A DNA stretch of 64,000 nt from Chryseobacterium aureum (lineage in GTDB: Bacteria > Bacteroidota > Bacteroidia > Flavobacteriales > Weeksellaceae), in NCBI RefSeq assembly GCF_003971235.1, contig NZ_CP034661.1, positions 4,092,001-4,156,000 on the forward strand, read 5' to 3'. Shown piece after piece: positions 56,984-64,000 of this stretch (its first letter is position 1; every line of letters starts with the position of its first letter). Below the pieces are notes generated by a model, which ran no database searches, had not been told where the DNA came from, and saw only the letters and a program-made list of their open reading frames with translations. The translations under genes and the position numbers were made by a program.

Positions 56984-57382
56984 ATGAAGCTAGAACATAT
57001 TGGTATTGCTGTAAAGTCTTTAGGTGTTTCTGATGAACTTTTTGCCAAATTATTAGGAAAAGAATCCTATAAAAAAGAAAGTGTGGAGAGAGAAGGCGTT
57101 GTAACTTCTTTCTATGAAACAGGGGAAAGTAAAATTGAGCTGCTGGAAGCCAGTAACCCTGAAAGTCCGATCTCAAAATTTATTGATAAAAAGGGTGAAG
57201 GAATCCATCATCTGGCATTTGGGGTAGAAAATATTCTTGAGGAAGTAAAAAGATTAAAAAAAGAAGGATTTCAGTTTATCTCCGAAGAACCGAAAGAAGG
57301 TGCTGATAACAAATTAGTTGTATTCCTTCATCCAAAGTCTACAAACGGCGTGCTGGTAGAACTTTGCCAAGAAAAGCAATAA
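56984..57382 (+). CDS. mce: methylmalonyl-CoA epimerase
   Basis: Interconverts R- and S-methylmalonyl-CoA in propionate metabolism. 132 residues of the glyoxalase/VOC fold: MKLEHIGIAVKSLGVSDELFAKLLG, SKIELLEASNPESPISKFIDKKGEGIHHLAFGVENI and GADNKLVVFLHPKSTNGVLVELCQ carry the metal-ligand His and Glu positions. Confidence 0.95.
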   Translation: MKLEHIGIAVKSLGVSDELFAKLLGKESYKKESVEREGVVTSFYETGESKIELLEASNPESPISKFIDKKGEGIHHLAFGVENILEEVKRLKKEGFQFISEEPKEGADNKLVVFLHPKSTNGVLVELCQEKQ

Positions 57383-57409
57383 AAAATTTTGTAGTGAAAG
57401 AAATTTTAC

Positions 57410-57417
57410 TATTTTTG
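57410..57417 (+). promoter_or_regulatory. promoter of the tRNA gene
   Basis: TATTTTTG matches TAnnTTTG, with TTG at 57389-57391 spaced 18 bases upstream as a -33 element. Transcript start expected near 57423, 22 bases before the tRNA. Confidence 0.7.
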
Positions 57418-57444
57418 CAAACACAAAATTTAACCAAGTTTTGA

Positions 57445-57518
57445 GGTCCTATAGCTCAGTTGGTTAGAGCACCTGACTCATAATCAGGTGGTCCCTGGTT
57501 CGAGCCCAGGTGGGACCA
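57445..57518 (+). tRNA. tRNA with CAU anticodon, probably tRNA-Ile2
   Basis: 74 bases from GGTCCTA to TGGGACC plus the discriminator A; all four stems close (one G-U in the acceptor). Anticodon CAT at 57479-57481 in the loop CTCATAA. The anticodon arm GACTCATAATC resembles the tRNA-Ile(k2CAU) type read after TilS modification, rather than elongator Met. CCA is not encoded. A strong terminator follows. Confidence 0.9.
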
Positions 57519-57527
57519 CAGAAAATC

Positions 57528-57560
57528 AACCGCTTACGTGATGTGAGCGGTTTTTTATTT
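57528..57560 (+). terminator. intrinsic terminator of the tRNA
   Basis: AACCGCTTAC pairs with GTGAGCGGTT (one G-U), loop GTGAT, followed by TTTTTTATTTTT. On the minus strand it could also stop the RiPP operon, whose last gene ends at 57576, although a T run is then lacking. Confidence 0.88.
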
Positions 57561-57575
57561 TTATAATACTCAAAT

Positions 57576-58427
57576 TTATTTTTTCAGAGAATGGCCTCTA
57601 TTGGTTTTGTAAAAGCGGAATAAGTGATCATAAACCACCATTTCAAATAGTCTTTGATGGGAAGTAAACAACCGGTTAATATGCATATGAAAAATGCTTT
57701 TCAAGAAATCCTTTAGTTTTATTTCCAGAAGATTATCCTTTTCCAATTTTGAAAGTTCTTCAGCCTTTAATGCAATTTCAGTGATATTACTTTTTATTAA
57801 ATCTCTGATTTCTTCATATTCCTCAGAATTAATAAACTCAAAGTATTGGGGATAAAACTCATTATACTTTTTCTTTAACTGCGTATTTAGGTTCTTATCT
57901 GCATTGAATTCCGATTTGAAAGCATTTTCAGAACGCTGTGCAAACTCTGTTTTCTCTTCAAGAGATACGTTGAATGCTGATAAAATATGATCTATATACA
58001 ATAAAGAAGTAATGATCTTTTCTTCATCACTGTATTCCAGAAAGGTTAAAATCAATTGACTGCTTTTAAAAAAGAGGTCTTCCGCATATTCTATCGTGTT
58101 TTCACCATAGCGTTCAAGTTCTCTTGAGTAAGTATCCATAATGACAGAAGAGACTTCTCCTGATTCCAGATAGTCTTTAAATAAAGAATTAATCATTGCT
58201 AAGACCATACTGGGGTCAGTTATGGGCTTAAGATTTAATCTTATCCTCAGGTGAGGTTTAGGATCGTTATATCGTATAAAAAACCATTTGTCAATAAGGT
58301 TTTGAATTTGTAATTGCCCTACTAATGGGTCTATAACTTCCTGTAGGATGCTATCTGAAGTTTTGATCCCCGTGTAAACTTTGAAATAGAGCCACTCACT
58401 TCCCGGATGAAATTTTCTGGTTGCCAT
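57576..58427 (-). CDS. thiopeptide-type SpaB_C domain protein (split LanB elimination half)
   Basis: 283 residues. The signature WLYFKVYTGIKTSDSILQEVIDPLV with FFIRYNDPKPHLRIRL at residues 49-63 marks the SpaB_C / thiopeptide-type bacteriocin biosynthesis family. In LanB-type dehydratases this half removes glutamate from glutamyl-Ser/Thr to leave dehydroalanine or dehydrobutyrine. Here it is a separate gene, five bases after the LanB glutamylation half, so the two form one split enzyme. Last gene of the operon. Confidence 0.9.
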   Translation of the reverse strand: MATRKFHPGSEWLYFKVYTGIKTSDSILQEVIDPLVGQLQIQNLIDKWFFIRYNDPKPHLRIRLNLKPITDPSMVLAMINSLFKDYLESGEVSSVIMDTYSRELERYGENTIEYAEDLFFKSSQLILTFLEYSDEEKIITSLLYIDHILSAFNVSLEEKTEFAQRSENAFKSEFNADKNLNTQLKKKYNEFYPQYFEFINSEEYEEIRDLIKSNITEIALKAEELSKLEKDNLLEIKLKDFLKSIFHMHINRLFTSHQRLFEMVVYDHLFRFYKTNRGHSLKK

Positions 58428-58432
58428 CTTAT

Positions 58433-60628
58433 TTATAGGTCTTTATAAAGAGTGAAAACGAACTGATGAATATAATCTGACTGATCATTATACAGAAACT
58501 CCTCAATAAAAATTTGTTTTTCATTTTTTACAGATGATAAAAACATTCGAATCAAATCATAATTTTTCAGATTGACCGCCAGTGTATGATCTCCTTTTAC
58601 CCACTGAACCCATTGTGGAATGTGTTTTAGTTTTCTCCATTCTTCAATCTTTTGAAGCAGAATATCATTTTCATCAGATTGAATCAATGACCCGAAATAC
58701 TGAATATGTTCAGGATCAATTTTCCATCGTGCTTTAGACAAAATAATGTTTTGATATTCAACTCTTGGGAGAAAATCATAGATATGGGATAGCCCACCCC
58801 AGTTAAATGATAAATAAGATTTTACATTCTGATTGTTATAATCACATAAAAAATGATAGACAGGCAAAGAGTTGTTTGAATAATTATGGGCATTTGTAAG
58901 ATGAGGAATAACTTCCTTGTTGTACTTCTTTGACCTTAGAAATAACCGGCCGTTCTTGATGGACAGATACAAATCTTCTACAAGAATCTGATTGTCTTTT
59001 TCTAATGCAGAACTGGCCAGATAAGGGATTTCATATTCTCTCAGAGAAGGTCTTCTGATCACATTTCCAATTCGGGATTCAGGTAAGTGTACAATTTCTG
59101 CCAGAATTTTGTCCGGATTAAGTTCCTGTTCTTTTTCAGCAATGGTTTTCACTAAATCTTTTACGGATGATTTTTCTGAACAGAATCTGCCCAGTAATTT
59201 TCCGGCATTTCCACCAGCAGATTGTACAGATAATTTTTCCTGCAGGTTGTCTGAAATGACTTCAGCCATAACGGACAATGTATCTGGCAGTTGATCCCAT
59301 TGTTCCTCAAAACCTTTAAAATCATCATCAGTTAAATGGATTACATGATCTTTATTCCAGTAAGCTTTTTGTAATTTCTGATTAAGGATGATTTGTACCG
59401 GATTGAGATGTACCTGAATTTCTTTTTTCTGGTGAGATGACGGCAGGATTAAATCTTCAAGATAGGGATGAACTCCTTTGGCCTGAGTATCCTGTACATA
59501 GCCAATCCCTATTTCAGGATCTAAAGCATAAGATAAAGGTACTTCCTGGCTTTCAAATCTTTCCTGAAAAGCTTTTTTAAATTTTTCTAAAGCAGTTTCT
59601 TTGGAAGGAACGGCAATTTTATTCAGAAAAGAGATTCCTTTTTTCAGTTCTTTTTTCCATTGATAGGATAAGTTTGTTTCCTCTTCAAAATAAAGATCTG
59701 TCTGGAAAAGGTATTTTTTTTCATATTGTACATTCAGTTTTTTGATGAGTTTTTCAATTTCAGAATAAGAGGCTGCTGTATTTCCAAAATGGAGGTCAAG
59801 TTCATTTAGCTTGTTTCTGAGGGCAGCTAAAATCTCTTTTTCCTGATGGGCACCTATTCTGTTTAAAATGGAAACTATTACTTCCAGAAAATCACCTCCT
59901 GAAACGGTAGGATTAAGTTCACTTACCAGAACCTGATTTTCGATAAGTTCATTAATAAATTCCTGTGCTTCTTCAAAGGATATTTCTTCCTGAACAAGAG
60001 GAATAGCAAGCTCGTCAATGGTTTTACCTGTTTCTGAAAATTGTAGGATAAACTCTAATGCTTCGGAAACCGGAGCGGAAGATATGATGTAATCTCTTTT
60101 TCCTCCTGTATTTTCATATTCTACAAAACGGATTTTATTTCCAATTTTATGAATGCTGTTATTAGGGAAAAAAGAAATATTGTTTTTAATATGCGGCACG
60201 GAAAGAAGCTGTTCTGATAGCGCCACCAAAAAATGCATATCCAGCTTTGTGTCTCTTACTTTTGTATGCTCTGAGAATACCGGAAACAGGGTTTCCTTTT
60301 CAAATTTTCCGGTACTTACTCCTGAGAACAGCCCAAATGGGGTACACCGGGTACTTGTACGGTTATAATATTTGAGCAGTGAGCTTTCAGTTCTTTTGTG
60401 CAGGGGCTGATCACCCAACAACTCATTGTGTGCATACTTTTCTATCTCCTGATACAAAGAAAGAGAAGCTAAATAAATGGCTTCTCTAAAAATCTTGTTG
60501 TTATAATATTTTTCTAGATTTCCGTTGGCTGCATTTTCACCGGAAAAATTATTCTGAAATTCTTTGTAAGAAAAAAGCGGTGCTCTTACAACGAATTTGT
60601 CAAAAAACTGAAAGGGGAAACGTGGCAT
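58433..60628 (-). CDS. LanB-type lantibiotic dehydratase, glutamylation half
   Basis: 731 residues. N-terminal PRFPFQFFDKFVVRAPLFSYKEF and the segment RTSTRCTPFGLFSGVSTG at 90-107 are diagnostic of LanB. The enzyme transfers glutamate from Glu-tRNA to Ser/Thr of the precursor. The C-terminal elimination domain is missing and is supplied by the next gene. Its ATG overlaps the stop of the hydrolase gene (TAATG), so translation is coupled. Together with the precursor this would make a dehydrated peptide; no LanC cyclase is present in the window. Confidence 0.92.
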   Translation of the reverse strand: MPRFPFQFFDKFVVRAPLFSYKEFQNNFSGENAANGNLEKYYNNKIFREAIYLASLSLYQEIEKYAHNELLGDQPLHKRTESSLLKYYNRTSTRCTPFGLFSGVSTGKFEKETLFPVFSEHTKVRDTKLDMHFLVALSEQLLSVPHIKNNISFFPNNSIHKIGNKIRFVEYENTGGKRDYIISSAPVSEALEFILQFSETGKTIDELAIPLVQEEISFEEAQEFINELIENQVLVSELNPTVSGGDFLEVIVSILNRIGAHQEKEILAALRNKLNELDLHFGNTAASYSEIEKLIKKLNVQYEKKYLFQTDLYFEEETNLSYQWKKELKKGISFLNKIAVPSKETALEKFKKAFQERFESQEVPLSYALDPEIGIGYVQDTQAKGVHPYLEDLILPSSHQKKEIQVHLNPVQIILNQKLQKAYWNKDHVIHLTDDDFKGFEEQWDQLPDTLSVMAEVISDNLQEKLSVQSAGGNAGKLLGRFCSEKSSVKDLVKTIAEKEQELNPDKILAEIVHLPESRIGNVIRRPSLREYEIPYLASSALEKDNQILVEDLYLSIKNGRLFLRSKKYNKEVIPHLTNAHNYSNNSLPVYHFLCDYNNQNVKSYLSFNWGGLSHIYDFLPRVEYQNIILSKARWKIDPEHIQYFGSLIQSDENDILLQKIEEWRKLKHIPQWVQWVKGDHTLAVNLKNYDLIRMFLSSVKNEKQIFIEEFLYNDQSDYIHQFVFTLYKDL

Positions 60629-62853
60629 TAATTAAGAGAAATAGGGATTTCTATAAAGCTGTTGTTGTAAAATTTTATTTCCATAGGGGCAGCAGCATCT
60701 TTAATAGTTTCTTCACTTACCTCTTTTCCTGTTCCATAATTGATCTGCATAAGCGGATTTTTTACAGCTCCTAATACTAAAACCAGTTTACTTCCTTTTT
60801 CCATTTTTTTACTTACAAATTCATTATTGGTAACCGTTATGCTTGTTTCTTTGTTCTCACGCAGCAATTTTCTTTTTTCTGAACTTTTTGCATAGCTTGC
60901 TCTTCCATAATAGGTAGATAGCAGAAAATATTTGCCTTCTGTGTTTTGCTCATACAGTTTCATGTATACGTCAACGTCTTTTTTATTAACGGATACATTC
61001 AGATTACCTACAAAATTTCCTGTAAATTCAACAGGTTTTTCAAATGGCTCTGAGGAAAATACAATGGCATCTGAACTGTAAATTTTACTATCCAGTACAT
61101 TATCTTTCTGCTTAAAAAGCTCATCTGCATTAGTCCGGTCTTTAAAATCTACCGTGAGCGGTGTGAAGCTTTTGTCTTTATCTTTTTCTAAAGAAAGCTG
61201 ATGATGGGTGCTGATATAGAATTTTAATTTGTTTTTATCAAAATCATCAATGCTGGAAGTACTTTTCCATTCATTGGTTCCCATTACCTGATAATTAATT
61301 TTATCCTTAAGGAAAGACGGTTTCAGTTTCCCCTTCAGAATATAATCAAACCATTCCATTGTGATATTGCCGATATCCATATTGGCTGCAGAATCAATTG
61401 TATAGCCTTTCAGGTTATTTTTAATATACCCCTGAGCTCCTGAATGATCATAAGGTCCGATAATCAAATAATGATTGGCGTTTTTGTTGTATTTATAATG
61501 ATTTCTGAAATAGTATAACGCTCCCAGCTGATCAGAATCATAATATCCTGTAATGGTGAGAACCGGAATATTGATGTGGGAATAGTCATTTTGGTAAGGA
61601 ATCATTTTCTGCCAGTAGCTGTCAAATGACGGATGCTTTAACCAGCGCTGAAATATTATATTTTTTTTGCCGGCAAGAGAATCTAGCTTGTTAAATGCCT
61701 CACCGCCCTCATACCATTTTTTAAAAACAGAATTCCAATGATCTTCATCTTTGAAGCTTGCATCAAGCATTTTATTATTGGTAACATAGTTAATCCAACG
61801 AAGAGAATAAGAGGAAAAGATGTTATTATTCATAGGGAAATCTACTACGCCAATTCCTACAGACGCCTGCGGAATAATAGTTTTCAAGGCAGGATGTATA
61901 TTTTTAGCGGCTGCCCATTGGCTGAATCCCAGATAGCTGCCTCCAATCATTCCTAATTTGCCGTTGCTCCAGGGTTGTTTTATAATCCAGTCAATGACCT
62001 TATTAATATCTTCCTGCTCATGTTCAAAAGGTTCTATAGCAGCATTGCTCGTATATTTTCCTCTGGGATAAATGTAAACAGAATGATAGCCATAGCTGGC
62101 ATGTACTTTTTGATCATTGACATCCTCTGCATCGGGATAAATGGAATTGACCAGGATGGTAGATTCGGGATTGGTTATTTTTTTATTTAAAACAACTCTT
62201 ATACTGATTTCATTATTGATTAATAAGCTGTCTTTCACCTCGAAGTTCCTGGAGTCGAGTTCTTTCAAATAATTTTTAGCGATATCAAATGTAGGTCCTG
62301 TTACATAGGAGTTATAACTTCTGCACAGCAGTAAAGCTTTTTTCAGATCCACGCTGTCTTTGTTCTCAAAATCATTTTTAAGGGCAGCCAGAATCTCTTT
62401 TTTTGTTTTCTCGGTATCGCCATTGAAATAGCGGGGAAGTATGATCTGTGTTTTTGCCGGCAGACTTTCATATTTTTTCAGGAATTCTTCTTTATATTTT
62501 TCCTGAAAATCTTTCTGAGCACTTTTATTTTTCTGAGCATTGATGTAAATTTCATACTGTGTTCCCATTGCATTAGAAATAATGGGATTACTTTTTCTGT
62601 AAACACTGCGTACTGAATCCAGCTGGCTTAAAGCAATATCATAATTTTTTGCGGCCATACTTGCCCTGAAAAGATTATCATACTTTACTGCCTTGTCTTT
62701 TTCTTTATAATTCTTTTGTATTTCAGAATTTAAATAAGAAATTAAAGGCTGCAGTTTCTCAATATTGTATTCATTAAAATGCTTGATACTTATTTTCTGG
62801 GAAAAAGTAATATGGAATGTAAGAAAAAAAGATAGGGTTAACAGGTACTTCAT
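60628..62853 (-). CDS. secreted CocE/NonD-type (S15-like) hydrolase of the RiPP operon
   Basis: 741 residues. Signal peptide MKYLLTLSFFLTFHITFSQ; then about 190 residues of helical N-terminal extension. The alpha/beta hydrolase of the CocE/X-Pro dipeptidyl peptidase type follows. The nucleophile is Ser306 in IGGSYLGF, acid Asp439 or Asp441 in TGYYDSDQ and His470 in GPYDHSGAQG. A C-terminal jelly-roll follows (FTGNFVGNLNVSVNKKDVDVYMKLYEQN). It is periplasmic or outer-membrane facing, so it probably cuts or trims the exported product or degrades a related peptide. It is the second gene of the operon, downstream of an attenuator. Confidence 0.9.
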   Translation of the reverse strand: MKYLLTLSFFLTFHITFSQKISIKHFNEYNIEKLQPLISYLNSEIQKNYKEKDKAVKYDNLFRASMAAKNYDIALSQLDSVRSVYRKSNPIISNAMGTQYEIYINAQKNKSAQKDFQEKYKEEFLKKYESLPAKTQIILPRYFNGDTEKTKKEILAALKNDFENKDSVDLKKALLLCRSYNSYVTGPTFDIAKNYLKELDSRNFEVKDSLLINNEISIRVVLNKKITNPESTILVNSIYPDAEDVNDQKVHASYGYHSVYIYPRGKYTSNAAIEPFEHEQEDINKVIDWIIKQPWSNGKLGMIGGSYLGFSQWAAAKNIHPALKTIIPQASVGIGVVDFPMNNNIFSSYSLRWINYVTNNKMLDASFKDEDHWNSVFKKWYEGGEAFNKLDSLAGKKNIIFQRWLKHPSFDSYWQKMIPYQNDYSHINIPVLTITGYYDSDQLGALYYFRNHYKYNKNANHYLIIGPYDHSGAQGYIKNNLKGYTIDSAANMDIGNITMEWFDYILKGKLKPSFLKDKINYQVMGTNEWKSTSSIDDFDKNKLKFYISTHHQLSLEKDKDKSFTPLTVDFKDRTNADELFKQKDNVLDSKIYSSDAIVFSSEPFEKPVEFTGNFVGNLNVSVNKKDVDVYMKLYEQNTEGKYFLLSTYYGRASYAKSSEKRKLLRENKETSITVTNNEFVSKKMEKGSKLVLVLGAVKNPLMQINYGTGKEVSEETIKDAAAPMEIKFYNNSFIEIPISLN

Positions 62854-62892
62854 AAAAATAAAAAATCAGTAATTTTTTTCAAAATTACTGAT
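62854..62892 (-). terminator. attenuator hairpin between precursor and processing genes
   Basis: ATCAGTAATTTT (62865-62876) and AAAATTACTGAT (62881-62892) pair exactly across four bases; on the minus strand a run of TTTTTTATTTTT follows. Position just after the precursor stop suggests most transcripts end here, giving precursor in excess over enzymes. Confidence 0.8.
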
Positions 62893-62907
62893 AAAATGTT
62901 GAAATGT

Positions 62908-63084
62908 TTAATGGTTTTTTATTGTCATATCCAGAGTGTCATCTATTGTTCTGTCTACCACAGTATCGTTGTCGCCATTCAAAAGCATTTGATTGCCTCC
63001 TCCGGAGCTTAGCCCTCCTCTTATTTTAGACATTTGAACTTTGTTTAGGGATAATTTTTTTTCTGTTTTTTTAATTTTTTTCAC
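62908..63084 (-). CDS. RiPP precursor with Gly-Gly leader and cysteine-free Thr/Asp core
   Basis: 58 residues from a GTG at 63084: leader MKKIKKTEKKLSLNK then VQMSKIRGG. The LSLNK word resembles the FNLD-type recognition box of class I leaders. The 34-residue core begins LSSGGGNQMLLNG and then carries Thr at regular intervals (DT, DRT, DDT, DMT) within an Asp-rich stretch, ending IKNH. There is no cysteine. A longer frame to 63126 would add 14 residues that overlap a -7-like box. The adjacent LanB pair and attenuator support its precursor role. Confidence 0.85.
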   Translation of the reverse strand: MKKIKKTEKKLSLNKVQMSKIRGGLSSGGGNQMLLNGDNDTVVDRTIDDTLDMTIKNH

Positions 63085-63123
63085 AGCTAAAATAATTTTA
63101 AAATTTCTAAATAAATTGAAGTA

Positions 63124-63131
63124 CAAAGGAA
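63124..63131 (-). promoter_or_regulatory. candidate -7 box of the precursor operon
   Basis: Minus-strand TTCCTTTG differs from TAnnTTTG in one base. It ends 40 bases before the GTG at 63084. Confidence 0.35.
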
Positions 63132-63172
63132 ATTCTATTCCTGTAAATAAAGAATTTATACATGCCGAAATT

Positions 63173-63190
63173 GATAAATTCCGATAAATT
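63173..63190. promoter_or_regulatory. GATAAATT direct repeats, possible activator site
   Basis: GATAAATT occurs at 63173-63180 and 63183-63190, spaced 10 bp (one helical turn), about 45 bp upstream of the candidate -7 box. This is a reasonable position for an AraC-type activator site. Assignment is inference. Confidence 0.35.
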
Positions 63191-63230
63191 TAAATTGTAA
63201 ACTATTGGTTTTTAGTGTTTTGAAATATAT

Positions 63231-64000
63231 TTAATTGAGGGCTTTTATGTAATAAGAAGGAAGTGTTCCTGTTATTTTTTTGAAGGCATTGGTGAAAGAT
63301 TCAGCATTATTGTAGCCAATATCATCAGCAATAGCAGCGATGGTATGCTTTCTTATTTTTTCGTTAGATTTTAGCTCTTCAACAATATAGTTGATCCTGA
63401 GTTCATTCAGATATTGGGAAAAGTTTTTGCCTTTTAATTCATTAACCAGTTTGGAGAGATAATCCCTGTTTGTATCAAATTCTTTTGAAAGAGAGTCTAA
63501 TGTAATATTTTTATTGAGAAAGTGATTCGTCTTTTCAAACTGTTCTATTTTATCAATAAGTATTTTAAATTTCGGATTGGAAGAAAGGTCACTTTTCGGT
63601 GCTTTTTCCTTTCTTTCAATATGAGCGGAAGGATGATCTGTTATAGGAGTTTCATTCTTTTTTTCTTTTTCCGGTACAGGAGTAGCCAAAGGCTTTTCTG
63701 ATAATACTTTTGCCTGCCTTTCATATTCTTTTATTTTCTTTCTGTTTTTTCTGATTACCAATATGAATATTAAAGTAATGAGCATCAGAGACGCTATCAG
63801 CCAGGCATTCTGATGGTTCAGTTTTTCAATTACACCTACCTTTTCTTTCATAAGAAGGGGAGTATCATACTTTTTCAGAATTTCTTTTGAAAGATTTTTG
63901 CGGTTTACAGCAATTATACTGTCGCTATGGATCAGATTATCAATATATTTTAATTGGTTTTTTAAATCGCCTTTCTTTTTATAATAATCGATCAGAATTT
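63231..64000 (-). CDS. TPR-containing AraC-family regulator, 5' end cut by the window
   Basis: The reading frame is open from the stop at 63231 to the window end; the first 50 or so codons visible (IDYYKKKGDLKNQLKYIDNLI onward) look like a TPR repeat. An ATG at 63851 is therefore internal, not the start. A membrane helix (AWLIASLMLITLIFILVI) and a Lys/Pro/Glu-rich linker follow. An AraC-type DNA-binding domain ends the protein (LDSLSKEFDTNRDYLSKLVNEL, HTIAAIADDIGYNNAESFTNAFKKITGTLPSYYIK). Such TPR-membrane-AraC regulators sense peptides or signals in Bacteroidota. It lies directly upstream of the RiPP precursor in the same direction. Confidence 0.88.
   Translation of the reverse strand, partial: ILIDYYKKKGDLKNQLKYIDNLIHSDSIIAVNRKNLSKEILKKYDTPLLMKEKVGVIEKLNHQNAWLIASLMLITLIFILVIRKNRKKIKEYERQAKVLSEKPLATPVPEKEKKNETPITDHPSAHIERKEKAPKSDLSSNPKFKILIDKIEQFEKTNHFLNKNITLDSLSKEFDTNRDYLSKLVNELKGKNFSQYLNELRINYIVEELKSNEKIRKHTIAAIADDIGYNNAESFTNAFKKITGTLPSYYIKALN

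Follow-up and report, generated by a model that had tools for sequence, protein, structure and literature searches.

Organization of the gene cluster

The analysed window, a 64,000-nucleotide stretch of Chryseobacterium aureum DNA, contains an operon located on the minus strand. Its computed gene order is as follows: a gene encoding a small precursor peptide (62908..63084), a gene for an S15/CocE-type hydrolase of 741 aa that looks exported (60628..62853), and two genes that domain matches assign to the halves of a split LanB dehydratase, i.e. a glutamylation protein of 731 aa (PF04738; 58433..60628) and an elimination protein of 283 aa (PF14028, TIGR03891; 57576..58427). Upstream, on the same strand, lies the gene of a TPR-membrane-AraC regulator, of which the window contains the C-terminal 255 aa (63231..64000); the full protein of 576 aa passes the window end (L003:7235-8962, minus strand), and its predicted topology comprises a likely signal peptide, a TPR domain, a transmembrane helix and an AraC-type HTH.

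The hydrolase is similar to cocaine esterase, with which its motifs GGSYLG, GYYD and GPYDHSG align, and to alpha-amino acid ester hydrolases. Ser306, Asp439 and His470, which we take to be the catalytic residues, are invariant in all 16 aligned enzymes. The assignment as an exported protein comes from inspection by eye of its hydrophobic N-terminus, which reads as a signal peptide. Residues Y80, R83, R87, T89 and H961 of NisB matter by mutation (PMC4341554), and matching residues are present across LanB_N and LanB_C of this cluster, the H961 equivalence being drawn by motif (NisB itself did not align to LanB_C). At the level of the family, the Y80/R83/R87/T89-type motif occurs in 78 of 85 distinct LanB_N proteins (the remaining seven escape the pattern), while the H961 and HxRxR motifs are present in 91 of 92 distinct LanB_C copies.

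An Rfam search of positions 57000-64000 found a tRNA alone. This tRNA-Met gene (57445..57519, plus strand) adjoins the end of the cluster here and at four other orthologous loci (L065, L167, L168, L169), i.e. five of the eight compared, and is absent beside the cluster in L066, L067 and L068; the cluster therefore has more than one chromosomal home. Right past the window end is a separate RiPP-like cluster (L003:9173-17192; genome C1 4157172-4165191), which encodes four small peptides, of which three end their leaders in Gly-Gly and have Cys in their cores, together with a radical SAM protein, a protein of 305 aa that matched nothing in Pfam, and an exporter of the C39 peptidase-ABC type. A gene for a TonB-type outer-membrane receptor separates it from the TPR-AraC regulator.

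The precursor peptide and its Asp/Thr tail

Translated from the GTG at 63084, the precursor is a peptide of 58 aa (VKKIKKTEKKLSLNKVQMSKIRGGLSSGGGNQMLLNGDNDTVVDRTIDDTLDMTIKNH). The mechanically called ORF (72 aa, TTG start) is probably too long to represent the true precursor; we prefer the GTG because GTG-AAA is kept at this position in all eight close orthologues, in three of which the open frame starts just one codon ahead of it. Other precursors of the family mostly seem to start with ATG.

The N-terminal part contains the motif LSLNKVQMSKI, which matches the leader motif LxLxKx5L given for class I systems of Bacteroidetes in PMC7268733, with Ile replacing the last Leu (LxLxKx5I). Searches of the precursor against NCBIfam and Pfam gave nothing above cut-off; the NCBIfam class I leader model NF038153 scored 11.3 bits (cut-off 22 bits). 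There are two candidate Gly-Gly cut sites, RGG|LSS and SSGG|GNQM. If the first is used, the leader spans 63013..63084 (minus strand). Aligned relatives place the leader end at the second site (62995-63003, minus strand), but one of the eight orthologues, L067, has Gly-Gly only at the first.

The segment 62908-62990, read on the minus strand, translates to MLLNGDNDTVVDRTIDDTLDMTIKNH followed by a stop codon, and the last 20 residues of the precursor (62911..62970, minus strand) form an Asp/Thr ladder, NDTVVDRTIDDTLDMTIKNH. The sequence-only reading had noticed the steps DT, DRT, DDT and DMT, all of which are present, and had described Thr recurring every four or five residues in an acidic background; this is accurate for the present precursor, whose Thr spacings are 5, 4 and 4 and which has six Asp within the 34 residues downstream of the first Gly-Gly. 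The Ser that it placed at the start of the core belongs there or not depending on which Gly-Gly is cut, and the terminal His that it noted is found in two of the eight orthologues. A run of four Thr spaced by 4-5 residues, each with Asp at -1 or -2, arose by shuffling with a frequency of 3e-5 for the 34-aa core and 2.9e-4 for the 20-aa tail, by a statistic that was picked after the sequence had been seen.

Conservation of the ladder

Comparison of eight close Chryseobacterium orthologues (L003, L065-L068, L167-L169) bore out the expectation of conserved Thr and Asp positions among varying neighbours, as would befit a candidate LanB substrate. Thr is present in all eight at columns 47, 52 and 56 and in seven at column 60, and Asp in all eight at columns 46, 55 and 58 and in seven at column 50. 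Column 54 is Asp, Asn or absent. Residues beside the ladder Thr and Asp vary conservatively, and the region ahead of the tail is more variable; pN/pS amounts to 0.09 in the leader, 0.47 in the middle part and 0.29 in the tail. Because the Thr and Asp columns are kept, and in view of these ratios, the alignments indicate that the identity of the ladder residues is under selection; a fixed period is not.

The proposal of a regular spacing of about four, placing dehydrated residues along one side of a helix, is not supported by the orthologues and appears extremely improbable. The pattern 5,4,4 that speaks for it occurs in four of the eight orthologues, but the other four are one residue shorter (5,3,4 in three and 5,3,5 in one), as is the core of G279, from another genus of the same family (NDTVLDKTKNTIEVTV; 5,3,4). 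Remoter relatives with the same LanB genes keep the first Thr pair (spacing 5) alone, or have no ladder, so that the refuting case named by the sequence-only reading, loss of the spacing with retention of LanB, is indeed found. Moreover, dehydroamino acids disfavour the alpha-helix.

The deeper constant is a single Thr pair, T-[VI]-x-[DEN]-x-T, which occurs in other genera too; its two Thr are invariant columns in a 14-row alignment of relatives. Among 21 cores chosen by this pattern, in which a first spacing of 5 follows by construction, there are between zero and six additional Thr; in L070, which looks like a chance match, the first spacing is 4. The pattern is present in 15 of 20 S15-paired cores (five lack it, and L070 is among the 15) versus none of 54 S9-paired cores (Fisher 8.5e-12, with rows that are not independent). 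The acidic steps had been considered unusual for LanB substrates, which does not hold within this family: cores average 4.8 D+E versus 2.3 K+R in S15 clusters and 3.9 versus 1.8 in the others, a label that denotes all clusters in which no S15 was found and takes in L083 and L098, whose slot is free of any hydrolase.

Absence of LanC and of core cysteines

No LanC gene is present in the cluster, and none of the eight close orthologues has a Cys in its core. Since there is neither Cys nor a cyclase, no lanthionine would be expected to form, and we read the product as a LanB-only dehydropeptide (Thr to Dhb), for which dehydration is inferred, and not as a lanthipeptide. LanC matches were found in 84 of 173 genomes of the genus. 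The two LanC genes of the present genome (3220978-3223229) adjoin a fused LanB about 930 kb from the cluster, and three of the eight ladder-bearing genomes (G044, G116 and G138) gave no LanC match in a genome search; G044 is a single contig rated 100% complete. The fused LanB (approximately 1,035 aa) and the two tandem LanC belong to a second, canonical-looking class I cluster (L004; genome C1 3216000-3234000), which has at least six near-identical Cys-containing precursors (GVNSLQAAAQSCGQCSCGG...).

Among 84 distinct Chryseobacterium precursors, 48 have no Cys, 36 have one and none has two. Given the 36 single-Cys precursors, some products could close one ring without LanC.

A family of split-LanB clusters with a variable enzyme slot

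Relatives of LanB_C were detected in 133 of the 173 genus genomes searched, a count that takes in fused LanBs and other clusters. In all, 88 distinct split-LanB clusters were mapped; a leader-type precursor is present in 83 of them and an S15 hydrolase in 25. At 61 other loci examined, the hydrolase position is occupied in 58 by one related ORF, typed as an S9 prolyl oligopeptidase from a single member (L069); the slot holds a regulator in L083 and L098 and nothing in L089. The recurring layout is regulator-precursor-hydrolase-LanB_N-LanB_C. In 30 long loci, LanB_N and LanB_C are invariably present and the regulator stands beside the precursor in 28.

What lies between precursor and LanB differs by genus: S15 or S9 enzymes in Chryseobacterium, S8 subtilases in Flavobacterium, LanC in Aquimarina and a small number of others. 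Precursors of the seven Flavobacterium S8 loci have 0-1 Cys (L107, scored as 0 by the script owing to the position of its leader end, really has one), and 24 of the 28 precursors at LanC-slot loci have two or more. A further 46 loci included 14 with nothing recognised in the slot, one S9 locus in which no precursor was found and nine fused LanBs. Two of these 14, the Flavobacterium loci L109 and L114, carry two or three precursors right before LanB_N, with one Cys per core. Plasmid carriage was also considered; LanB relatives turned up in 83 plasmid records, all of them below 60% identity.

Several clusters have more than one hydrolase. Hydrolases, tandem or extra, outnumber precursors in L088, L164, L192, L210, L212 and L225; in L088, L210 and L212 an S15 gene lies downstream of LanB_C. 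L173 contains an S15 remnant, and L087 and L174 have the order NDT precursor, S15, degraded precursor, S9, LanB.

Co-variation and probable exchange of precursor core, hydrolase and regulator

The LanB_N tree has 85 rows, after omission of L151, which is a short LanB_N, and of two repeated loci. On it the S15 and S9 labels require 12-13 changes, of which at least 6-7 are forced by well-supported branches, even though none of 500 shuffles clustered the labels as strongly. Genome G050 has three clusters whose LanB_N are 91-93% identical, whose hydrolases are an S9, an S15 and a 50%-identical S9, and whose cores are unrelated; one of them keeps a 65-residue C-terminal S15 remnant between the S9 gene and LanB_N. 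Of 15 LanB_N pairs at 85% identity or above, only the three of G050 are swapped, the cassette being kept in the other 12. The reverse is also observed, namely 50 pairs with hydrolases at least 70% identical but LanB_N below 62%.

Co-variation was computed by partial rank correlations, which are Mantel-type tests and not independent of ancestry. They covered the 74 cassettes in which core, intact hydrolase and LanB_N lie within 3.5 kb of sequence; L087 and L174, with their NDT/S15 cassette, fall outside this set. Given LanB, core and hydrolase correlate at 0.78 in S15 clusters (n=20) and, modestly, at 0.30 in S9 clusters (n=54), with 0/999 permutations each, versus 0.09 and 0.24, respectively, for core and LanB given the hydrolase. 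Hydrolase and regulator, given LanB, correlate at 0.63 (S15) and 0.89 (S9). After thinning to 12 S15 and 37 S9 cassettes, the core-hydrolase values are 0.58 and 0.24 (0/999 each) and the hydrolase-regulator values 0.58 (8/999) and 0.88 (0/999). The variation shared by core, hydrolase and regulator is independent of LanB, which suggests a swappable cassette for product, processing and sensing (or immunity) that appears to move between species as a whole. Plain linkage was considered as the cause; the hydrolase adjoins LanB_N and yet tracks the regulator across the precursor, which argues against it, although preferred recombination points could still play a part.

Proposed pathway and alternative explanations

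We consider it reasonably probable that the ladder represents the core, open to modification, of a ribosomal peptide made with LanB alone and without LanC, which would yield a linear acidic dehydropeptide after removal of a Gly-Gly leader, with an exported hydrolase acting on the product. The split LanB pair would glutamylate the Thr side chains of the ladder from Glu-tRNA(Glu) and then eliminate glutamate, giving up to four dehydrobutyrines; Dha at LSS may be formed as well, if those Ser belong to the core. Near the clusters of the 30 long loci no exporter recurs, and C39 genes are near-universal (169 of 173 genus genomes), for which reasons export is tentatively ascribed to an unlinked C39 peptidase-transporter that would probably cut the leader at a Gly-Gly site during passage. 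The S15 hydrolase would then act on the product outside the inner membrane, in maturation or self-protection, and the regulator, with its TPR domain predicted to face the periplasm, would be part of the same functional unit as precursor and hydrolase. Points that count against this pathway are the sub-threshold leader score, the lack of a linked exporter, the single-Cys precursors, the seven LanB_N copies that escape the motif pattern, and the modest core-hydrolase correlation in S9 clusters.

Other LanB chemistry seems highly unlikely here. Pearlins (an amino acid added at the C-terminus) and products with pyritide- or thiopeptide-like rings are likewise made without LanC and Cys (PMC11002830), but the pearlin LanB is short and has no elimination protein, whereas in this cluster LanB_C follows LanB_N and the catalytic motifs are present. 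As for rings, a second enzyme of LanB_C type that could form one is not part of the usual layout (this cluster has a single LanB_C), the pyridine-synthase model scored 14.9 against a cut-off of 325, and no azole enzymes (YcaO) were seen by eye among the recurrent neighbours of the 30 long loci.

The role of the hydrolase allows several readings of the preferred dehydropeptide pathway. It is possible, at a tentative level, that the dehydropeptide harms competitors and that the exported hydrolase protects the producer, being exchanged and left behind like immunity genes. The co-variation of hydrolase and core, in the full and thinned sets, agrees with such antagonism, as do the loci with surplus hydrolases and the S15 remnant of L173; nevertheless, no immunity transporter or target was identified, and the extra copies may equally be decaying remnants or second processing enzymes, so that remnant and tandem hydrolases fit self-protection and processing alike. 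The same co-variation is compatible with a plain maturation protease, which is possible to a similar, tentative degree. Pro is present in 50 of 54 S9-paired cores versus 9 of 20 S15-paired ones, and in some class III clusters a prolyl oligopeptidase, LanPB, has been proposed for such a task (PMC7268733). The S15 enzyme of this cluster, however, faces a Pro-free core (for this reason, and given the Pro counts, an X-Pro dipeptidase acting on the ladder, which would be the obvious task for S15, was rejected), and processing alone leaves the tracking of sensor and hydrolase unexplained. An esterase removing left-over glutamyl-Thr esters, to which the resemblance to cocaine esterase and alpha-amino acid ester hydrolases could point, is unlikely, as the enzyme looks exported.

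Another reading, doubtful at present, is that the processed dehydropeptide serves as an autoinducer, which the regulator would recognise through its periplasmic TPR domain, with regulator, peptide and hydrolase being exchanged as signal types before a shared LanB. It draws on the adjacency of regulator and precursor in the long loci and on the hydrolase-regulator correlations. In addition, the part of the regulator ahead of the membrane helix varies with the core (0.42 and 0.34, 0/999 each) and the HTH part does not (-0.11 and -0.17); with conservation-matched columns the values for sensor versus HTH are 0.48 versus -0.12 (S15) and 0.16 versus 0.00 (S9). The regulator genes of S15 clusters are mostly oriented towards the precursor, which places the HTH part closer to it than the sensor part. 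A model of the TPR domain (pLDDT 81) resembles the pheromone receptors Rap and NprR with Z 22-23. The TPRs of LGN and APPBP2, however, score equal to Rap, so the fold is not specific, the topology of the regulator is a prediction, and after the hydrolase is accounted for, little of the core is left for the sensor to explain (S15 0.05, S9 0.14).

In its full form the signalling proposal is rather unlikely. A Gram-negative bacterium would make a dehydropeptide with LanB and export it, a co-inherited and likewise exported hydrolase of type S15, S9 or S8 would trim it, and a membrane transcription factor consisting of a single protein would sense it through a periplasmic TPR domain. Signal types would be swappable, regulator, peptide and hydrolase being exchanged as one cassette before a shared dehydratase.

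Relation to known systems

The cluster shares its split LanB with pinensins (PMC7268733), which are class I lanthipeptides of Bacteroidota, and has a candidate leader of their LxLxKx5L type with Gly-Gly. In contrast to them, it has no LanC and a core without Cys, in which no ring would be expected; ChmABC, a class I system of Chryseobacterium OV715 that has been expressed, includes a LanC, and its ChmA product has three rings and needs ChmC (PMC9993889). With pearlins it has in common a LanB family enzyme and the lack of LanC and Cys (PMC11002830), but here an elimination protein is present and motif-complete. Pyritides, thiopeptides, goadsporin and dehydrazoles resemble the proposed product in containing dehydroamino acids, and split LanBs operate in thiopeptides and goadsporin (PMC10676384). 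They differ in that the layout found here lacks a further ring former of LanB_C type, no azole enzymes were seen by eye next to the clusters as recurrent genes, and Thr takes the place of Ser.

Alpha/beta hydrolases encoded beside a RiPP precursor are also represented by LanPB, the FlaP prolyl oligopeptidases and the lasso peptide isopeptidase; what distinguishes the clusters described here is that one slot is filled by either an S15, an S9 or an S8 enzyme, which varies together with the core. With RRNPP proteins (Rap, NprR) the putative receptor shares the adjacency to a peptide gene and a similar, though unspecific, modelled TPR superhelix. It differs from them, which are cytosolic and receive imported peptides, in being, by prediction, membrane-anchored with the TPR outside and the AraC HTH inside, in the presumed LanB modification of the peptide, and in its Gram-negative host.

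Our literature search, which covered few subscription papers, recognised no account of a Cys-free split-LanB family. We rate as known the enzymes and the leader type, and as new the replacement of the ring-forming half by an apparently swappable hydrolase together with a co-varying membrane sensor. The survey in PMC7268733 started from LanC and discarded Cys-free cores, and a search anchored and filtered in this way would miss Cys-free split-LanB clusters. The occurrence, in the same slot, of LanC with Cys-rich cores and of hydrolases with Cys-poor cores shows a possible kinship of the lanthipeptide and linear dehydropeptide pathways, and the co-variation of peptide, hydrolase and sensor provides a concrete, testable proposal for the role that such peptides may play.
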